Positions 3,874-33,954 of a DNA stretch of 64,000 nucleotides are shown here, piece after piece. Within the stretch, counting starts at the first letter, position 1; every line of letters begins with the position of its first letter. The position numbers and the translations under genes were made by a program. Source of the DNA: Niveispirillum irakense DSM 11586 (GTDB lineage Bacteria; Pseudomonadota; Alphaproteobacteria; Azospirillales; Azospirillaceae); the NCBI RefSeq assembly GCF_000429645.1, contig NZ_AUCG01000021.1:248001-312000 (forward strand), written 5' to 3'. The notes below the pieces were generated by a model that was not told where the DNA came from, did not search any database, and saw only the letters and a program-made list of their open reading frames with translations.

Positions 3874-5253
3874 ATGACCCTGATGCAAGCTGCCAGCCAA
3901 GCCACCGCTTCCACCAAGCCGCCATCCCTGAAACGGTCCCGACGCAAGGGCGGGCGCCGTGTCCTGTATGCCGGTATCGCCCTTCTGGCCGCCGCCGGCG
4001 CCGGAATTGCCTGGTGGCTTTCCAGCGCCGGGTCGACGGGGGAAGGTCAGTACCTGACCACTGCCGTGGAGCGGGGGGACATTGAAGACAGCGTTGCTGC
4101 GCTGGGTAACCTTCAGCCGCTGGATTATGTGGATGTCGGCACCCAGGTTTCCGGCCAGCTCCGCAAAATCCATTTCCTGGTGGGCCAGGAAGTGGAGCAG
4201 GGCACCCTGCTGGCGGAAATCGACCCCACCGTCTATCAGTCCCGCGTGGATTCCGACAAAGCGCAGCTTGAAAACCTGAACGCGCAACTGGCGCAGCGGG
4301 AAGCGGAACTGGTGCTGGCCAAACAGCAGTTTGAGCGTCAGCGCAACCTGTTGAAGGATAACGCCACCAGCCAGGACAGCTTCCAGAGCGCGGAGGCCAA
4401 TCTGCGCGCTGCTGAAGCCTCGATCCGGTCTGTGAATGCACAGATCCGCCAGACAACCTCCACCCTGCGGGGGGATGAGGCGAACCTGGGCTATACCAAG
4501 ATTTACGCGCCCATGACCGGCACTGTCGTGTCGCAAAACGCCAAGCAGGGCCAGACCCTGAATGCCAACCAGTCCGCGCCGATCGTGTTGCGCATCGCCG
4601 ATCTGGCCAAGATGACGGTGACGACCCAGGTTTCGGAGGCCGATGTCTCGCGCCTGAAGATCGGCATGCCGGCTTATTTCACCACCCTTGGCCGTCCGGA
4701 TCGCCGCTGGCAGGGGACATTGCGGCAGGTGGAGCCGACACCGACGGTGGAAAATAACGTCGTCCTCTATAATGCCCTGTTCGATGTGGGCAATGAGGGC
4801 GGCCAGTTGATGACGCAGATGACCGCGCAGGTCTTCTTCGTTGTCGCCCAGGCCAAGGACACGCTGCGCATTCCGCTGGCCGCCCTGCGTGCGCCGGGCC
4901 GCCCGGAAGGGGCGCCGCCCCGTGGTGGCGATGGTGCCCCGCGTCGGCCGGGCGCTGGCTCCGAAGCGGGGCCCAGGGCTGAAGGGGCACCCCGTCAGCG
5001 CCCCGCACCGGCAGCAGACGGCGAGGCTGGCCCCGGCGGGCGCCCCCGCATGGTCACGGTCCTGAAGGCCGATGGCACGACGGAAGAGCGGCGGATCATG
5101 GTCGGTGTTGCGGACCGGGTGAATATCCAGGTTCTGTCCGGCCTGGAGGAAGGGGAGCGCGTGGTGATTGGACGTGCCTTGCCCGCAGGACAGGCCCGTA
5201 GCATGCAACAGCAGCAGCAGGGGCCGCGCATGCGTCCGCCGGGGGTGTTATGA
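3874..5253 (+). CDS. macA: MacA-like periplasmic adaptor subunit of a tripartite efflux pump
   Basis: 459-residue membrane-fusion protein. A single N-terminal membrane anchor (about residues 29-49) follows a Lys/Arg-rich cytoplasmic start. Then come the first half of the lipoyl-like domain ([19 protein letters not shown]), a long alpha-helical hairpin (about 125-205), the second lipoyl half ([18 protein letters not shown]), a beta-barrel domain and a membrane-proximal domain. It links the inner-membrane MacB to the outer-membrane channel encoded next. Its stop overlaps the macB start (ATGA), showing translational coupling. Odd feature: about 60 residues rich in Pro, Gly, Arg and Ala (about 345-395) are inserted before the last domain. 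No clear ribosome-binding site is seen; ATG at 3883 is an alternative start. The substrate is not predictable. Confidence 0.9.
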
Positions 5254-7229
5254 GCAGCCCGCAGCAGAAGCCCCAGGCCACGCCGCTGATCGAACTGGTC
5301 GACATCACCAAGACCTATGCGACTGGCGAACTGGCGGTGCAGGTGCTGAAAGGCATCTCGCTCAAGATTTATCCCGGTGAATTTGTTGCCATCATGGGGG
5401 CATCGGGGTCGGGCAAATCGACCCTGATGAATATCCTGGGCTGTCTGGACCGACCGTCCACCGGGCAGTACCTGTTCGATGGGCAGGATGTGTCCACCTT
5501 TGACCGGGATATGCTGGCGGCGCTGCGGCGCGAGGCGTTCGGCTTCGTGTTCCAGAGCTACAACCTGATCCCGATGGCCACCGCGACCGAGAATGTCGAG
5601 GTGCCGGCCATCTATGCCGGCATGTCACGGGATGCGCGGCGGGAACGGGCGGAACAGCTTCTGTCTTCTCTGGGGCTGGAAGAGCGTCTGGACCATAGGC
5701 CCAGCCAGCTTTCCGGTGGTCAGCAACAGCGTGTTTCCATCGCCCGCGCGCTGGTCAATGGCGGCCAGGTGATCCTGGCGGACGAGCCGACGGGTGCGCT
5801 GGACAGCCGCAGCGGTGTGGAGGTTATGCGCCTGCTGCGGGAACTGGCGGACCAGGGTCACACCATCATCCTGATCACCCATGACCGGGATGTGGCCAAC
5901 AATGCCCGCCGGCTGGTGGAGTTGAAGGATGGGCAGGTCATTGCTGACGGGCCGCCGGACGGCGCGCAAGCAGCCCCGCCGCCGCCCGTGCCTGCCCGAT
6001 CCGTTCATGTGCCGCAACAGGGTGAGGATGAAGGCTGGAACTTCCGTGAGTTGACGGAAGCCTTCCGTATGGCGATGCGGGCCCTGACCGCCAATCTTTA
6101 TCGCACGGTGCTGACGCTGCTGGGCATCGTCATCGGTGTGGCATCCGTGGTGGCGATGCTGGCGGTGGGCAACGGGTCCAAGCAATCCGTGATGGACCAG
6201 ATGAGTGCCATGGGCACCAACCTGCTGCTGGTCCGCCCCGGCGCGCCAGGGCAGCGCAACGCCAATGGTGTGGCAACGCTGGTTCCTGATGACGCCATCG
6301 CGATTTCAGCCTTGCCTAATGTCACTGCTGCCGTCCCGGAATATACCGGCGGCATGACGGCACGCGCCGGCAACCTGGATTACCAGACGCAGGTGAATGC
6401 GACGACGCCCGCCATGGTGGTGGCCAAAAGCTGGCCGGTGGAGAGCGGTGTTTTCTTCAGTGAGGATGACCAGCAGCGCTATGCGCCTGTGGCTGTCATC
6501 GGCAAGACGGTGGCCGCTAACCTGTTCCCCGACCAGGACCCGGTTGGTCGCTATATGCTGTTGAAGAATGTGCCGTTCCAGGTGATCGGCGTGATGTCTG
6601 CCAAGGGCGCCACGCCATTCGGCCAGGATCAGGATGACGTGGTGTTCGTGCCGCTCAGCACGGGTTCGCTGCGCCTGTTCGGCCAGCGCAACCTGCGCAC
6701 CATCACGGTGCTGGTGGATAATCTGGAACGGATTGACGAGACGCAGACCGAGGTTACCTCCCTGCTGATCGCCCGCCATCAGGCGGAAGATTTCCAGATC
6801 CGCAACACCGCTTCCATCATCGAGACGCAATCGGCGATGCGCGACACGATGACGGTGCTGCTGGGGTCCATCGCGGCCATTTCCCTGTTGGTCGGTGGCA
6901 TCGGCGTGATGAACATCATGCTGGTCAATGTGACGGAGCGGACGCGCGAAATTGGTATCCGCATGGCGACCGGCGCCCGCACCCGTCACGTGATGCAGCA
7001 ATTCATGCTGGAAGCACTGCTTGTTTCCGCCCTGGGTGGTGTCGTCGGGGTTGTTCTGGGCTTGTCCATCGGCCTGCTGCTGTCGGCTTTGGGCACACCG
7101 ATCCAGCTTTCGCTGGCGCCGGTTGCCCTGGCATTCGGCTGTGCCTTCGGTACCGGCCTGGTCTTTGGTTACACCCCCGCCCGCCGCGCCGCCATGCTCG
7201 ACCCCGTCGTTGCCCTTGCGTCCGACTGA
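5250..7229 (+). CDS. macB: MacB-like ABC transporter, fused ATPase and permease
   Basis: 659 residues, the usual MacB length (about 650). The N-terminal ATPase has Walker [10 protein letters not shown] (near residue 50), signature [14 protein letters not shown] (near 155), Walker [13 protein letters not shown] (near 173) and the switch His in LITHDRD. A linker leads to the first membrane helix (about 285-305, [15 protein letters not shown]), then a large periplasmic domain (about 310-530), and three C-terminal helices of the FtsX type ([29 protein letters not shown]). Family members use ATP hydrolysis in the cytoplasm to drive export of macrolides, lipopeptides or other periplasmic substrates through MacA and an outer-membrane factor. 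Second gene of a three-gene operon; the start overlaps the macA stop by four bases. Confidence 0.93.
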
Positions 7230-12523: not shown

Positions 12524-12534
12524 GGGAGGAAACG
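12524..12534 (+). promoter_or_regulatory. mmsA ribosome-binding site, perfect complement of the small-RNA anti-SD core
   Basis: GGGAGGAAACG directly abuts the ATG at 12535 and fixes the mmsA start. It is the exact reverse complement of the 11-base core CGTTTCCTCCC of both candidate small RNAs at 32587-32657 and 32874-32952, so it is a possible site of translational repression. Confidence 0.65.
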
Positions 12535-30098: not shown

Positions 30099-32444
30099 TT
30101 ATTTTTTACCTTTGGCCTTTGCAGCGGCAAAGGCGGCGGCGAAAGCATTATCCTCCGCTGCCGGTGCGGGCGGGGCTTTGCGGGGTGGGGCTGCATTCTG
30201 GCGCGGGGCGGTGGCCGGGCTCCGCCGTTCATCCCGCCGTTCCGCCGGCTTATCGGTGGGGCGTGCCGGCGCGGGGCGTTCGTCCAGCTTCATGGTGAGG
30301 GCGACGCGGCGGCGCTTCAGGTCCACCTCCATCACTTTCACCTTCACGATATCGCCCGCCTTGACGACACTGTGGGGGTCTTTGACGAAGCTGTGGGAAA
30401 GCTGGCTGATATGCACCAGCCCATCCTGATGCACGCCCACATCGACGAAGGCGCCGAAATTGGTGACATTGGTCACCACCCCCTCCAGCACCATGCCGAG
30501 CTGGAGGTCTTTCAGTTCCTCCACCCCTTCCTTGAAGCTGGCGGTTTTGAATTCCGGGCGAGGATCGCGGCCGGGCTTCTCCAACTCCCGCAGGATATCG
30601 GTCACGGTGGGAATGCCGAATTTCTCATCCGTGAAATCGGCCGGGTCGAGCGATTGCAGGAAGGCAACATCGCCGATCAGCTTGTCGAGCGGTCGCCCGG
30701 TCTTTTTCAGGATGCGTTCCACCACCGGATAGGCTTCCGGATGCACGGAGGAACCGTCCAGCGGATTGTCGCCGTCGCGGATTCGCAGGAAGCCGGCGGC
30801 CTGTTCAAATGCCTTCGGCCCCAGTCGCGGCACCTCCAGCAACTGGCGGCGGGACCGGAACATGCCGTTGCGGTCGCGGAATTCCACGATGTTGCCGGCA
30901 ACCGTGCCGGACAGGCCGGAAACGCGGGCCAGTAAGGGGATGGACGCGGAATTCAGGTCCACGCCGACGCCGTTCACGCAATCCTCCACGACGGCGTCCA
31001 GCGTCCGGGCCAGTTTGGCCGGGCTGACATCGTGCTGATACTGGCCGACACCGATGGATTTCGGGTCGATCTTCACCAGCTCGGCCAGGGGGTCCTGAAG
31101 CCGGCGGGCGATGGATACGGCCCCGCGCAGGGTGACATCCAGCTTGGGGAATTCCTGCGCCGCCACTTCGGAGGCGGAATAAACGGACGCGCCGGCTTCC
31201 GACACCATCACCTTGGTCGGCTTCGCTCCCGGCAGTTTTTCCAGCAATTCTGCGGCCAGCTTGTCCGTCTCCCGGCTGGCGGTTCCATTGCCGATGGCGA
31301 TCAGATCGACATCATGGCGTTTCACCAGCACAGCCAGGGTGGCCAGGGAGCCATCCCAGTCACGCCGCGGCTCATGGGGATAGATGGTTACCGTTTCCAG
31401 CAGCTTGCCGGTGGCATCTACCACTGCGGCCTTTACGCCTGTCCGGATGCCGGGATCCAGGCCCAGGGTGGCGCGCTGGCCGGCGGGTGGTGCCAGCAGC
31501 AGATCCTTCAGATTGCGCCCGAAAACCGTAATCGCTTCATCCTCTGCCTTCTCGCGCAGGACGCTCATCAGATCGGTTTCGATATGCAGGGCGATCTTGG
31601 TCCGCCAGGCCCAGCGGCAGCAATCCAGCAGCCAGCGGTCGGCGGGACGGGACCGGTTTGCAATGCTGAAGGCGTTGGCAATGATCTGTTCGGCCGGGTG
31701 GGCTTCACCGGCCACCGGTTCATTACCCACCACCAGCTTCAGGTCCAGGATACCGGCTGCCCGTCCGCGGAACAGCGCCAGGGCCCGGTGGGAGGCGATG
31801 CGGGTCAGGGCCTCGCTCGAATCGAAATAGTCGCTGAACTTGGCGCCTTCTTCCGCCTTGCCCTCGATCAGGGTGGAGACGATGCGGCCCTGATCATGGG
31901 CCAACTGGCGCAGACGTCCGACCAGGGTGGCATCTTCCGCCATGCGCTCCACCAGGATGGCGCGGGCTCCCTCCAGTGCGGCCTTGGTATCGGCGATCCC
32001 CTTGTCGATGGCGATGAAGCCGGCGGCTTCCTTTTCCGGGTCGCGGGATGGATCAGCCAGCAGCAGGGTGGCCAAGGGCTCCAGCCCCGCTTCCCGCGCG
32101 ATCATACCCTTTGTCCGCCGCTTCGGCCGGAAGGGCAGGTAAAGATCTTCCAGCCGGGTTTTGCTGTCCGCCGCCTCCAGGTCGCGCAGCAGCTCCGGGG
32201 TCATCTTGCCCTGGTCGGTAATGGACTGCTTGATCGTTGCCCGGCGCTCTTCCATCTCCCGCAGATAGCGCAGCCGCTCATCCAGCGTGCGCAACTGGGT
32301 ATCATCCAGGCCGCCCGTCACTTCCTTGCGATAACGGGCGATGAAGGGGACGGTGCTGCCCTCATCCAGAAGGGCTGCCGCGGCTTCCACCTGCTGCGAC
32401 CGGACGCCCAATTCTTGCGCGATGCGGGCGGGAATGCTGGTCAT
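30099..32444 (-). CDS. tex: Tex-family RNA-binding transcription accessory protein
   Basis: 781 residues, close to E. coli/P. aeruginosa Tex (about 775-785). N-terminal helical Tex domain ([23 protein letters not shown]), YqgF/RuvC-like domain ([18 protein letters not shown]), helix-hairpin-helix repeats ([47 protein letters not shown]) and a C-terminal S1 RNA-binding domain ([33 protein letters not shown]). A basic, Ala/Pro-rich tail of about 60 residues follows. The Met at 32444 matches the family N-terminus ([13 protein letters not shown]); an earlier in-frame ATG (32483) adds unrelated residues. Single gene. Confidence 0.95.
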
Positions 32445-32550: not shown

Positions 32551-32580
32551 TTAACCAAATCTTAGGTGCAATGCGATATT
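32551..32580 (+). promoter_or_regulatory. Possible promoter of the rightward small RNA
   Basis: TTAACC (32551-32556), 18 bases, GATATT (32575-32580): four of six matches in each hexamer. Placed correctly for a transcript beginning near 32587. Confidence 0.35.
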
Positions 32581-32586
32581 TCTGAA

Positions 32587-32657
32587 ATCCGCGACATTTT
32601 GTTGCGTTTCCTCCCAAGACTGAAACCCCCGGCGCCTTACGGCGACGGGGTTTTTTT
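32587..32657 (+). ncRNA. Candidate suhB/mmgR-like trans-acting small RNA (copy A)
   Basis: About 70 nucleotides. Order of elements: 5' hairpin CGCGAC-ATTTT-GTTGCG (32590-32606), single-stranded anti-Shine-Dalgarno motif TTTCCTCCC (32607-32615) followed by AAGACTGAAA, then a GC-rich terminator hairpin (32624-32650) and TTTTTTT. Neither neighbouring protein gene reads into this terminator from the left on the plus strand, so it must end a separate transcript. The architecture and the UUUCCUCCC core are those of the multicopy alphaproteobacterial family known as suhB/mmgR (cuckoo-type RNAs); assignment is from memory of the family, not from a covariance search. The 5' end is approximate. Confidence 0.62.
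32624..32657 (+). terminator. Rho-independent terminator of small RNA A
   Basis: ACCCCCGGCGCC, loop TTAC, GGCGACGGGGT with one internal G-A mismatch, followed by seven T. Confidence 0.85.
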
Positions 32658-32858
32658 GTGCTGTTTGCTCCTAAAAAGCAGCCATTCCATGGGGTTGCGC
32701 CGATATGGTGCGCTTATCTGAAATAGAACGGTCGTGCCATCTGCAACAATTTTGTCCGACAGGCAGAAAATGCCTTGACCTGTCGTTCCAGATGAAAGAA
32801 ATAGTCTTCACAAGAACGGTGCCGCTGACGCAACCTTCGGAAATAAGAAGGGGCGATG

Positions 32859-32869
32859 GGGAGGAAACG
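32859..32869 (-). repeat. Third copy of the anti-SD motif, without small-RNA architecture
   Basis: On the minus strand CGTTTCCTCCC, 5 bases past the terminator of small RNA B. It has no own terminator or 5' hairpin, so it may be a remnant of a duplicated small-RNA gene or be exposed only in read-through transcripts. Confidence 0.4.
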
Positions 32870-32873
32870 GCCC

Positions 32874-32952
32874 AAAAGAAAAGGCCGCTACAAGAGCGGC
32901 CTGAGTTTAGGGAGGAAACGCCCGAAAGGGCATGCAGCAACGTGTGCTGCGA
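32874..32952 (-). ncRNA. Candidate suhB/mmgR-like trans-acting small RNA (copy B)
   Basis: About 79 nucleotides on the minus strand. A 5' hairpin GCAGCA/TGCTGC and a second GCCC-TTTC-GGGC (forward 32920-32931) precede TTTCCTCCCT (forward 32909-32918), then AAACTCA and the terminator stem GGCCGCT/AGCGGCC (forward 32883-32889, 32895-32901) with TTTTCTTTT. A well-spaced sigma-70-type promoter lies just upstream, predicting a start at about 32950-32953 and an RNA of nearly the 77-79 nucleotides usual for mmgR. It is a paralogue in architecture of copy A, in convergent orientation 217 bases away. Family name is an inference. Confidence 0.7.
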
Positions 32953-32957
32953 TGCAC

Positions 32958-32986
32958 AATATGATCCCGGCCAACGGGATTGGCAA
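32958..32986 (-). promoter_or_regulatory. Sigma-70-type promoter of small RNA B
   Basis: On the minus strand -35 TTGCCA (5 of 6), 17-base spacer, -10 CATATT (4 of 6), with the predicted start 6-8 bases beyond. The spacing is optimal. Confidence 0.6.
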
Positions 32987-32991
32987 GTGGT

Positions 32992-33027
32992 AAAAGGCGG
33001 CCCCCTTTGCGGGGCCGTCGCCATTTT
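32992..33027. terminator. GC-rich hairpin flanked by A-run and T-run
   Basis: AAAAGGC, GGCCCC, loop CTTTGC, GGGGCC, 3-base bulge, GCC, ATTTT. It could stop transcription in either direction; it isolates otsB from the small-RNA genes. Confidence 0.6.
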
Positions 33028-33123: not shown

Positions 33124-33954
33124 ATGGGACCAATGGTCGATATATCATATCAAACGACGAGCGCTGTCGGCGGCACCGATATGCATTATGTTGATGTCTG
33201 CCTTGCTGAAACTGAAAGCTTGGTGGGCGCTGCCGATGGGCGGAAGCCGGTCTTGTTTCTGGACTATGATGGCACTTTGACGCCGATCATGCCGCGACCG
33301 GAAGATGCTGTTCTTTCTGACCGGATGCGTGAACAAGTGCGGGCGATTGCGGCCCTGTGCCCTGTCGCCATCGTTTCCGGGCGCGATATGGCGGATGTTC
33401 GGTCCCTGGTTGATATTGATGGGCTGGCCTATGTCGGCAGTCACGGGCTGGATATCAGCACGACCGCCGGCTTCCATGCAGTTGGGGAGCCTTTCCGTCC
33501 TGCTATTTTACGGGCTGTGGCAGCACTGGAAAAGGCGCTGACATCCATTCCCGGTGCATATGTCCAACCCAAACGTTATGCGATTACGGTCCATACCAGG
33601 CTGGTGGCTCCGGACCACAAGGCCCAGGTTGTTGACACGGTTCATGCCGTTCTGTCGGGGGAGCCGACCCTGCGCTACATGTCCGGCAAGGAAATGCATG
33701 AACTGCGTCCCGATATGGATTGGCATAAGGGAAGTGCCGTCGTCCATCTGGCCCGGATGGAAGGGTGGCAGGACCATCCCTGGATTTTCATCGGGGATGA
33801 TGTGACGGACGAAGATGGCTTCCGCGCGGTCGCGGAAAAAGGCTTAGGCATTCGCGTGGGTGAGTTGGGGGCGACGACAGCCGCGCGCTTGTCCCTGCCG
33901 GATGTCGATGCCGTCCTGGCCTATCTTTCCAGGCTTCAAGCGACGCTGTCCTGA
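33124..33954 (+). CDS. otsB: Trehalose-6-phosphate phosphatase
   Basis: 276 residues from ATG 33124; 33133 and 33082 are possible alternatives, the first two sharing an AAGGAAA just upstream. HAD-superfamily enzyme: motif I FLDYDGTLTPI (nucleophile first Asp), motif II IVSGRD, the cap region with VGSHGLDIS, and the last motif FIGDDVTDEDGF. It removes phosphate from trehalose-6-phosphate made by OtsA, giving the osmoprotectant trehalose. No otsA is in the window. It stands alone, between the small-RNA region and a hairpin at 33989. Confidence 0.92.
   Translation: MGPMVDISYQTTSAVGGTDMHYVDVCLAETESLVGAADGRKPVLFLDYDGTLTPIMPRPEDAVLSDRMREQVRAIAALCPVAIVSGRDMADVRSLVDIDGLAYVGSHGLDISTTAGFHAVGEPFRPAILRAVAALEKALTSIPGAYVQPKRYAITVHTRLVAPDHKAQVVDTVHAVLSGEPTLRYMSGKEMHELRPDMDWHKGSAVVHLARMEGWQDHPWIFIGDDVTDEDGFRAVAEKGLGIRVGELGATTAARLSLPDVDAVLAYLSRLQATLS

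Follow-up and report, generated by a model that had tools for sequence, protein, structure and literature searches.

A short leftward RNA gene lies between tex and otsB in Niveispirillum irakense DSM 11586, raising the question of whether it encodes a free-standing small RNA, to which family that RNA belongs and with which other genes it might work. The stretch of DNA analysed here (the window) comprises 64,000 nucleotides, and a first-pass annotation made from its letters had described a promoter, a 5' hairpin, an anti-Shine-Dalgarno (anti-SD) core and a terminator at this locus. It had also assigned the RNA to the suhB/MmgR family, together with the label 'cuckoo', and had pointed to a covariance-model search and to conservation in related genomes as checks. 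The phylogeny of the alpha-r8 RNAs is reportedly the work of Lagares in 2016, the cuckoo RNAs that of Reinkensmeier in 2015 and CrfA that of Landt in 2010.

An alpha-r8 small RNA gene between tex and otsB

Only one Rfam family exceeded its cut-off in the 64 kb window. This was RF00519 (suhB, MmgR = alpha-r8), which aligned over its full length (model positions 1-77) to positions 32867-32938 of the minus strand with 56.9 bits, where the gathering score is 41 (E 4.7e-9). The features of the locus are collected in Table 1. The -35/-10 pair with its 17-base spacer, the anti-SD core and the terminator stem with its T-rich tail were all found where the first-pass annotation had placed them; the 5' hairpin is likewise present, but there are two such hairpins rather than the one described.

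Table 1 Features of the alpha-r8 locus and of the associated loci (window positions unless another locus is named).
Feature	Position	Strand	Remarks
tex (RNA-binding, S1 domain)	30099..32444	-	divergent from sibling; start codon provisional
CtrA-like box TTAA-N7-TTAG	32551..32565	+	sibling promoter region
alpha-r8-like sibling	32590..32657	+	hairpin 32590-32606, seed UUUCCUCCC 32607-32615, terminator-like hairpin and U tract to 32657
alpha-r8 (RF00519) sRNA	32874..32952	-	about 79 nt; 5' end near 32952 predicted from -10 box
intrinsic terminator	32874..32902	-	stem 32902-32882, then T-rich tail to 32874
seed UUUCCUCCCU (anti-SD core; DNA TTTCCTCCCT)	32909..32918	-	from sequence and conservation
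second 5' hairpin	about 32933-32918	-	from the fold
outer 5' hairpin GCAGCA..UGCUGC	32934..32950	-	mostly beyond the Rfam model
promoter TTGCCA-N17-CATATT	32958..32986	-	-35 TTGCCA 32986-32981, -10 CATATT 32963-32958
otsB (trehalose-phosphatase)	33178..33954	+	Pfam PF02358; divergent from alpha-r8 gene; start codon provisional
candidate CrfA-like sponge RNA	G000:C3:492243-492405 (L184 1501-1663)	+	opposite weak RF00519 match

The predicted 79-nt RNA folds at -32.2 kcal/mol (z -4.72, with 1 of 200 shuffles as good), and in the minimum-energy fold the seed lies single-stranded just 3' of the hairpin, with at most its first U paired. Taken alone, scans for promoter consensus sequences (2 found against a mean of 0.7, sd 0.9) and for terminators (1 found against a mean of 1.0, sd 0.9) were at chance level; the above-chance evidence is the RF00519 match together with the fact that related genomes preserve the whole unit along with its promoter. 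On these grounds the window RNA is near certain to be an alpha-r8 RNA.

The label 'cuckoo' fared differently. The window RNA has the CCUCC anti-SD core in common with the cuckoo/alpha-r14 RNAs (CcsR1-4, NfeR1), and might on that account be read as one of them. However, alpha-r14 is a different family: its RNAs, to which the cuckoo paper is tied, have three hairpins, each with a CCUCCUCCC (PMC10746234), and CcsR-like RNAs are DUF1127-linked (PMC10253847), whereas the window RNA contains UUUCCUCCCU once and lacks CCUCCUCCC, with one TTTCCTCCCT and zero CCTCCTCCC in 32867-32952. Membership of the cuckoo family, already contradicted by this motif and by an RF00519 score with no other family over its cut-off, therefore deserves almost no credence.

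Two further candidates at the locus were set aside. Open reading frames of 117 and 113 aa that lie over it gave no Pfam match at E <= 0.1, and a protein-coding reading was rejected. A further TTTCCTCCC (CGTTTCCTCCC) at 32869-32859 on the minus strand, just past the alpha-r8 terminator, has no terminator of its own, is missing from six other loci compared and was not counted as a gene. We also noted an inverted repeat, GGCCCC..GGGGCC, immediately upstream of the alpha-r8 promoter (window about 32998-33020), which is kept in the aligned copies and reads CAGCCCC..GGGGCTG in relatives.

Conservation of the alpha-r8 unit

Within a set of 40 genomes, own genome counted, RF00519 matched at E <= 0.001 in 34 and over its cut-off in 33; in a class-wide draw of 289 genomes the corresponding counts were 159 and 126. 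This conservation in relatives, together with the score in the window, supports the family assignment of the first-pass annotation. The promoter, the 5' hairpins, the seed and the terminator are all conserved across 12 aligned copies, of which nine come from the same genus and three from other genera of the family, and which so do not represent 12 independent cases. GTTTCCTCCCTA and, one base further, ACTCAGGCCGCTC are unchanged in all 12, as is the -10 ATAT, and TTGCCA is found in 11. Because the aligned copies are so alike there is little covariation, with two-sided changes at 1 of 19 pairs. Family membership and the conservation of promoter, seed and terminator were established in silico, and the window RNA is an ordinary, well-made representative of a known family, to which it adds one genome. 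The main text of a paper on A. brasilense sRNAs (PMC7685610) does not mention suhB, mmgR or RF00519.

A convergent alpha-r8-like sibling beside tex

Between the alpha-r8 gene and tex lies a second putative RNA gene, on the opposite strand, that was missed in the first-pass annotation. It has the element order hairpin, seed, terminator, being made up of a CGCGACA-UUU-UGUUGCG hairpin, a free UUUCCUCCC and a terminator-like hairpin followed by seven U. RF00519 scores it at 31.8 bits (32597-32665, plus strand) against the cut-off of 41, and because this falls below the gathering score we call it alpha-r8-like and do not file it as a member. When folded with its 5' hairpin (32587-32657) it reaches a z of -3.20, with none of 200 shuffles as good, whereas shorter cuts without that hairpin reach just -1.37 and -1.81. 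Its terminator is absent from the output of the window terminator scan.

Twelve genomes, drawn from four genera, have an orthologue of the sibling next to tex (G000-G003, G005-G008 and G010 of the same genus, together with G012, G019 and G022); G004 and G009 have neither tex nor the sibling in the stretches examined. The sibling is convergent with an alpha-r8 gene in 11 of the genomes, at a distance of up to about 1 kb in seven (G000, G001, G002, G005, G006, G008, G010), up to about 2.6 kb in G003, G019 and G022, and about 10 kb in G012; in G007 there is no over-cut-off alpha-r8 gene near the sibling. The seed of the sibling reads UUUCCCUCCC in five same-genus genomes and GUUCCUCCC in G019. 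In five same-genus genomes a further ORF that appears MerR-like by eye follows the sibling and lies between the two RNAs (L048 about 5150-5680 in G005, and the same place in G002, G006, G008 and G010), and its ribosome-binding site, GGGAGGGAA in G005, complements the changed seed UUUCCCUCCC of the sibling there.

This arrangement bears on whether the window RNA might be a leader or attenuator that acts in cis on tex rather than a free sRNA. Tex is the next large minus-strand gene, about 0.4 kb downstream, and the gene order is kept in same-genus relatives, both of which speak for such a leader. Yet the RNA ends in a terminator, the sibling gene intervenes on the opposite strand (as does the further ORF in five relatives), and another copy of alpha-r8, on contig 1, is not adjacent to tex. 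For these reasons we rejected a tex leader, which we regard as improbable, in favour of a free sRNA.

The promoter region of the sibling contains a box that we take to resemble the CtrA consensus. The pattern TTAA-N7-[TA]TA[AG] occurs once in the window, both strands considered, and that occurrence is at the sibling. It is present in all 12 sibling orthologues, 53-57 nt before the seed, with the seven spacer bases varying; its second half is TTA[AG] in six of the first 11 orthologues and ATAA in five, and is TTAA in G019. If bound by CtrA, this box would place the sibling within the programme that governs motility and the cell cycle.

alpha-r8 genes face trehalose genes

In its own genome, the window alpha-r8 gene lies head to head with the single otsB, and the single otsA (contig 1, L056 3417-5165) lies head to head with a second canonical alpha-r8 gene, which scores 56.2 bits with RF00519. 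Across the 40-genome set, a divergent alpha-r8 gene lies no more than 600 nt from otsB in 10 of the 19 genomes that possess otsB, and from otsA in 8 of 18. One or the other is linked in 12 of the 19 genomes with either gene, including one genome (G038) of a different family; this is a raw count in which relatives are not independent. Among the seven ots genomes that lack the link, G016 exceeds the distance limit at 866 nt and G039 has no alpha-r8 match.

The frequency of this head-to-head arrangement could mean that the window RNA is a by-product of a divergent promoter, or a cis-regulator of otsB or otsA, and does not act in trans. We consider this highly improbable, as six same-genus genomes in which no otsA or otsB match was found (G002, G004, G005, G006, G008, G010) still carry alpha-r8, and conservation of the seed extends well past the genomes that have ots genes. 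These six genomes, together with the seven of 19 ots genomes without the link, also argue against any strict dependence of the two on one another. The pairing of each of the split trehalose genes with an alpha-r8 gene suggests shared control of a stress and storage sugar and a carbon-economy sRNA. Among the literature matches listed there was no report joining alpha-r8 to a trehalose gene or to CtrA, which is weak evidence of absence, and the words 'trehalose' and 'CtrA' each occur zero times in the main text of PMC12559287.

A candidate CrfA-like sponge RNA on contig 3

A weak RF00519 match (34.5 bits) was also found on the minus strand of contig 3 of the same genome, and its sequence suggests that a CrfA-like sponge may be encoded on the strand opposite to it. 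Along that plus strand come TATAGT (which relatives have as TATACT), an A-rich start, a hairpin and TGAGTTTAGGGAGGAATCGCCACCAGGCG, with a terminator, GGCAAGCCG..CGGCTTGCC-TTTTT, farther downstream. The core of the candidate is nearly invariant in 13 aligned loci, 11 of which were used to build a sponge model (G013 and G021, with no clear terminator, were left out). The model matched at E <= 0.001 in 49 of the 289 class genomes. Several weak matches overlap RF00519 genes of opposite orientation, and for this reason only those at E <= 1.2e-9 were counted. These strong matches were found in 20 of the 289 genomes, four of which (G000, G005, G008, G038) had contributed to the model.

An antisense terminator is found in 15 of the 20 strong loci, a partly circular count in that the terminator is part of the model, and none was found by pattern in the other five. 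The promoter lies outside the model: using a pattern written after viewing 19 of the 20 strong loci, a TGAC..TATACT-like promoter was found in 10 of the 20, and the contig-3 locus itself fails this pattern, reading TGGACG..TATAGT. As a control we took canonical alpha-r8 loci, using 26 of 31 (L001, L002, L005-L033; L006, L016, L026, L029 and L033, cut by contig ends, were excluded) and dropping one more that was without the core. On the antisense strand of the remaining 25 there were zero sponge promoters and zero terminators.

The candidate is complementary to the alpha-r8 seed, with 22 nt uninterrupted against the window RNA. Raw duplex energies, computed without a shuffled or accessibility control, are -85.6 kcal/mol with the window RNA, -64.3 with the sibling and -46.5 with the sibling of G005. 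Against the sponge reading, in all 11 loci the core folds more favourably when read on the RF00519 strand than on the antisense strand, so the RF00519 strand, or both strands, may be transcribed. No Rfam family besides suhB covers the contig-3 locus at E <= 0.5. Four RF00519 matches over the cut-off (44.3 to 45.5 bits, in G058, G138, G149 and G241) overlap strong sponge matches on the opposite strand; by our patterns, the sponge terminator is present in G138 and G241, and neither promoter nor terminator is found in G058 and G149. Some RF00519 matches may therefore mark a sponge gene read on its opposite strand. If the sponge is true, the Caulobacter feast/famine circuit would reach well beyond Caulobacter, and no report of CrfA outside that genus appeared among the literature matches listed (weak evidence of absence).

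A proposed mode of action and candidate targets

The best explanation of the locus, in which we have high confidence, is a stand-alone alpha-r8 (MmgR/SisA-type) sRNA that would act by Hfq-assisted anti-SD repression, tuned by dose and perhaps sponged. By analogy, it would most likely work as an independent sRNA with the help of Hfq, its anti-SD seed pairing with ribosome-binding sites as in Caulobacter SisA, the system in which this mechanism was shown and from which it is carried over (PMC12559287). On Hfq, UUUCCUCCCU would pair with purine-rich Shine-Dalgarno regions and so lower the translation of numerous mRNAs, most of them concerned with uptake and the use of carbon, as in Caulobacter. 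Dose could be tuned by the second canonical copy beside otsA and by the alpha-r8-like sibling beside tex, each with a different promoter, and perhaps also by the CrfA-like candidate with its uninterrupted complement to the seed region.

The pattern AGGGAGGAAA-N0-8-ATG, in which a perfect complement of the 10-mer stands 0-8 nt ahead of an ATG, occurs at seven sites in the genome against zero for the reversed pattern, a control by reversal that is not matched for ribosome-binding sites. Five of the seven precede ORFs that are 249 aa or longer and contain Pfam domains, which would make candidate targets of a TonB receptor, an enoyl-CoA hydratase, a GH43 glycosidase, a FAD/2Fe-2S oxidoreductase and FlgK; the other two head ORFs of only 33 and 2 aa. 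Strong Shine-Dalgarno sequences are common in any case, which counts against these being target sites. Separately, the ribosome-binding site of an aldehyde dehydrogenase gene in the window, GGGAGGAAACGATG (12524-12534), complements most of the alpha-r8 seed. It came from another pattern, with 10 sites against one for the reversed control, four of the 10 in or beside alpha-r8 genes.

Taken together, the sibling, the trehalose link and the sponge candidate, all inferred from sequence, form the less ordinary part of this system, and they matter more than the sRNA itself. They could belong to a conserved three-part RNA circuit in the Azospirillaceae and beyond, with canonical alpha-r8 genes facing otsA and otsB, an alpha-r8-like sibling beside tex under CtrA-type control, and a CrfA-type sponge whose gene would be a copy of its own target, an alpha-r8 gene, transcribed from the other strand; we put this forward tentatively, as a possibility we would not yet favour.

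Comparison with known systems

Like the contig-3 RNA, Caulobacter CrfA (gene CCNA_R0093) is seed-complementary. It is described as protected at G49-C63 and mutated at G49-G54, and SisA as protected at G33-C45 and mutated at C40 (PMC12559287). Residues G49, G54 and C63 of CrfA fit the contig-3 letters, and the CrfA and SisA residue letters fit GGGAGGAAUCGCCAC and GGCGUUUCCUCCC, in a consistency check by letters and numbers and not by alignment. MmgR of Sinorhizobium meliloti falls in the same Rfam family, RF00519, with a length of 77 nt against about 79 here and an anti-SD motif (PMC7143759). Its control by NtrC and AniA has been reported, and it is the only alpha-R8 copy in S. meliloti, unlike the several found here.

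There is also a close likeness in seed and architecture to SisA-D (alpha-R8) of Caulobacter crescentus. Compensatory mutation showed that these RNAs pair with a TonB-receptor leader, and TonB receptors and other transporters are prominent among the Caulobacter targets of SisA (PMC12559287). According to the same source, an alpha-R8 copy adjoins an N-formylglutamate amidohydrolase gene in most species; here, by contrast, the genes next to alpha-r8 are tex, otsB and otsA, two of the RNA genes converge, and the function is predicted from sequence. The window seed is identical to that of SisA-D, and both RNAs carry the 10-mer UUUCCUCCCU past a hairpin, followed by a terminator. In Caulobacter, SisA-D has several siblings with unrelated promoters and a TonB receptor among its candidate targets, and the same holds for the alpha-r8 RNA described here.
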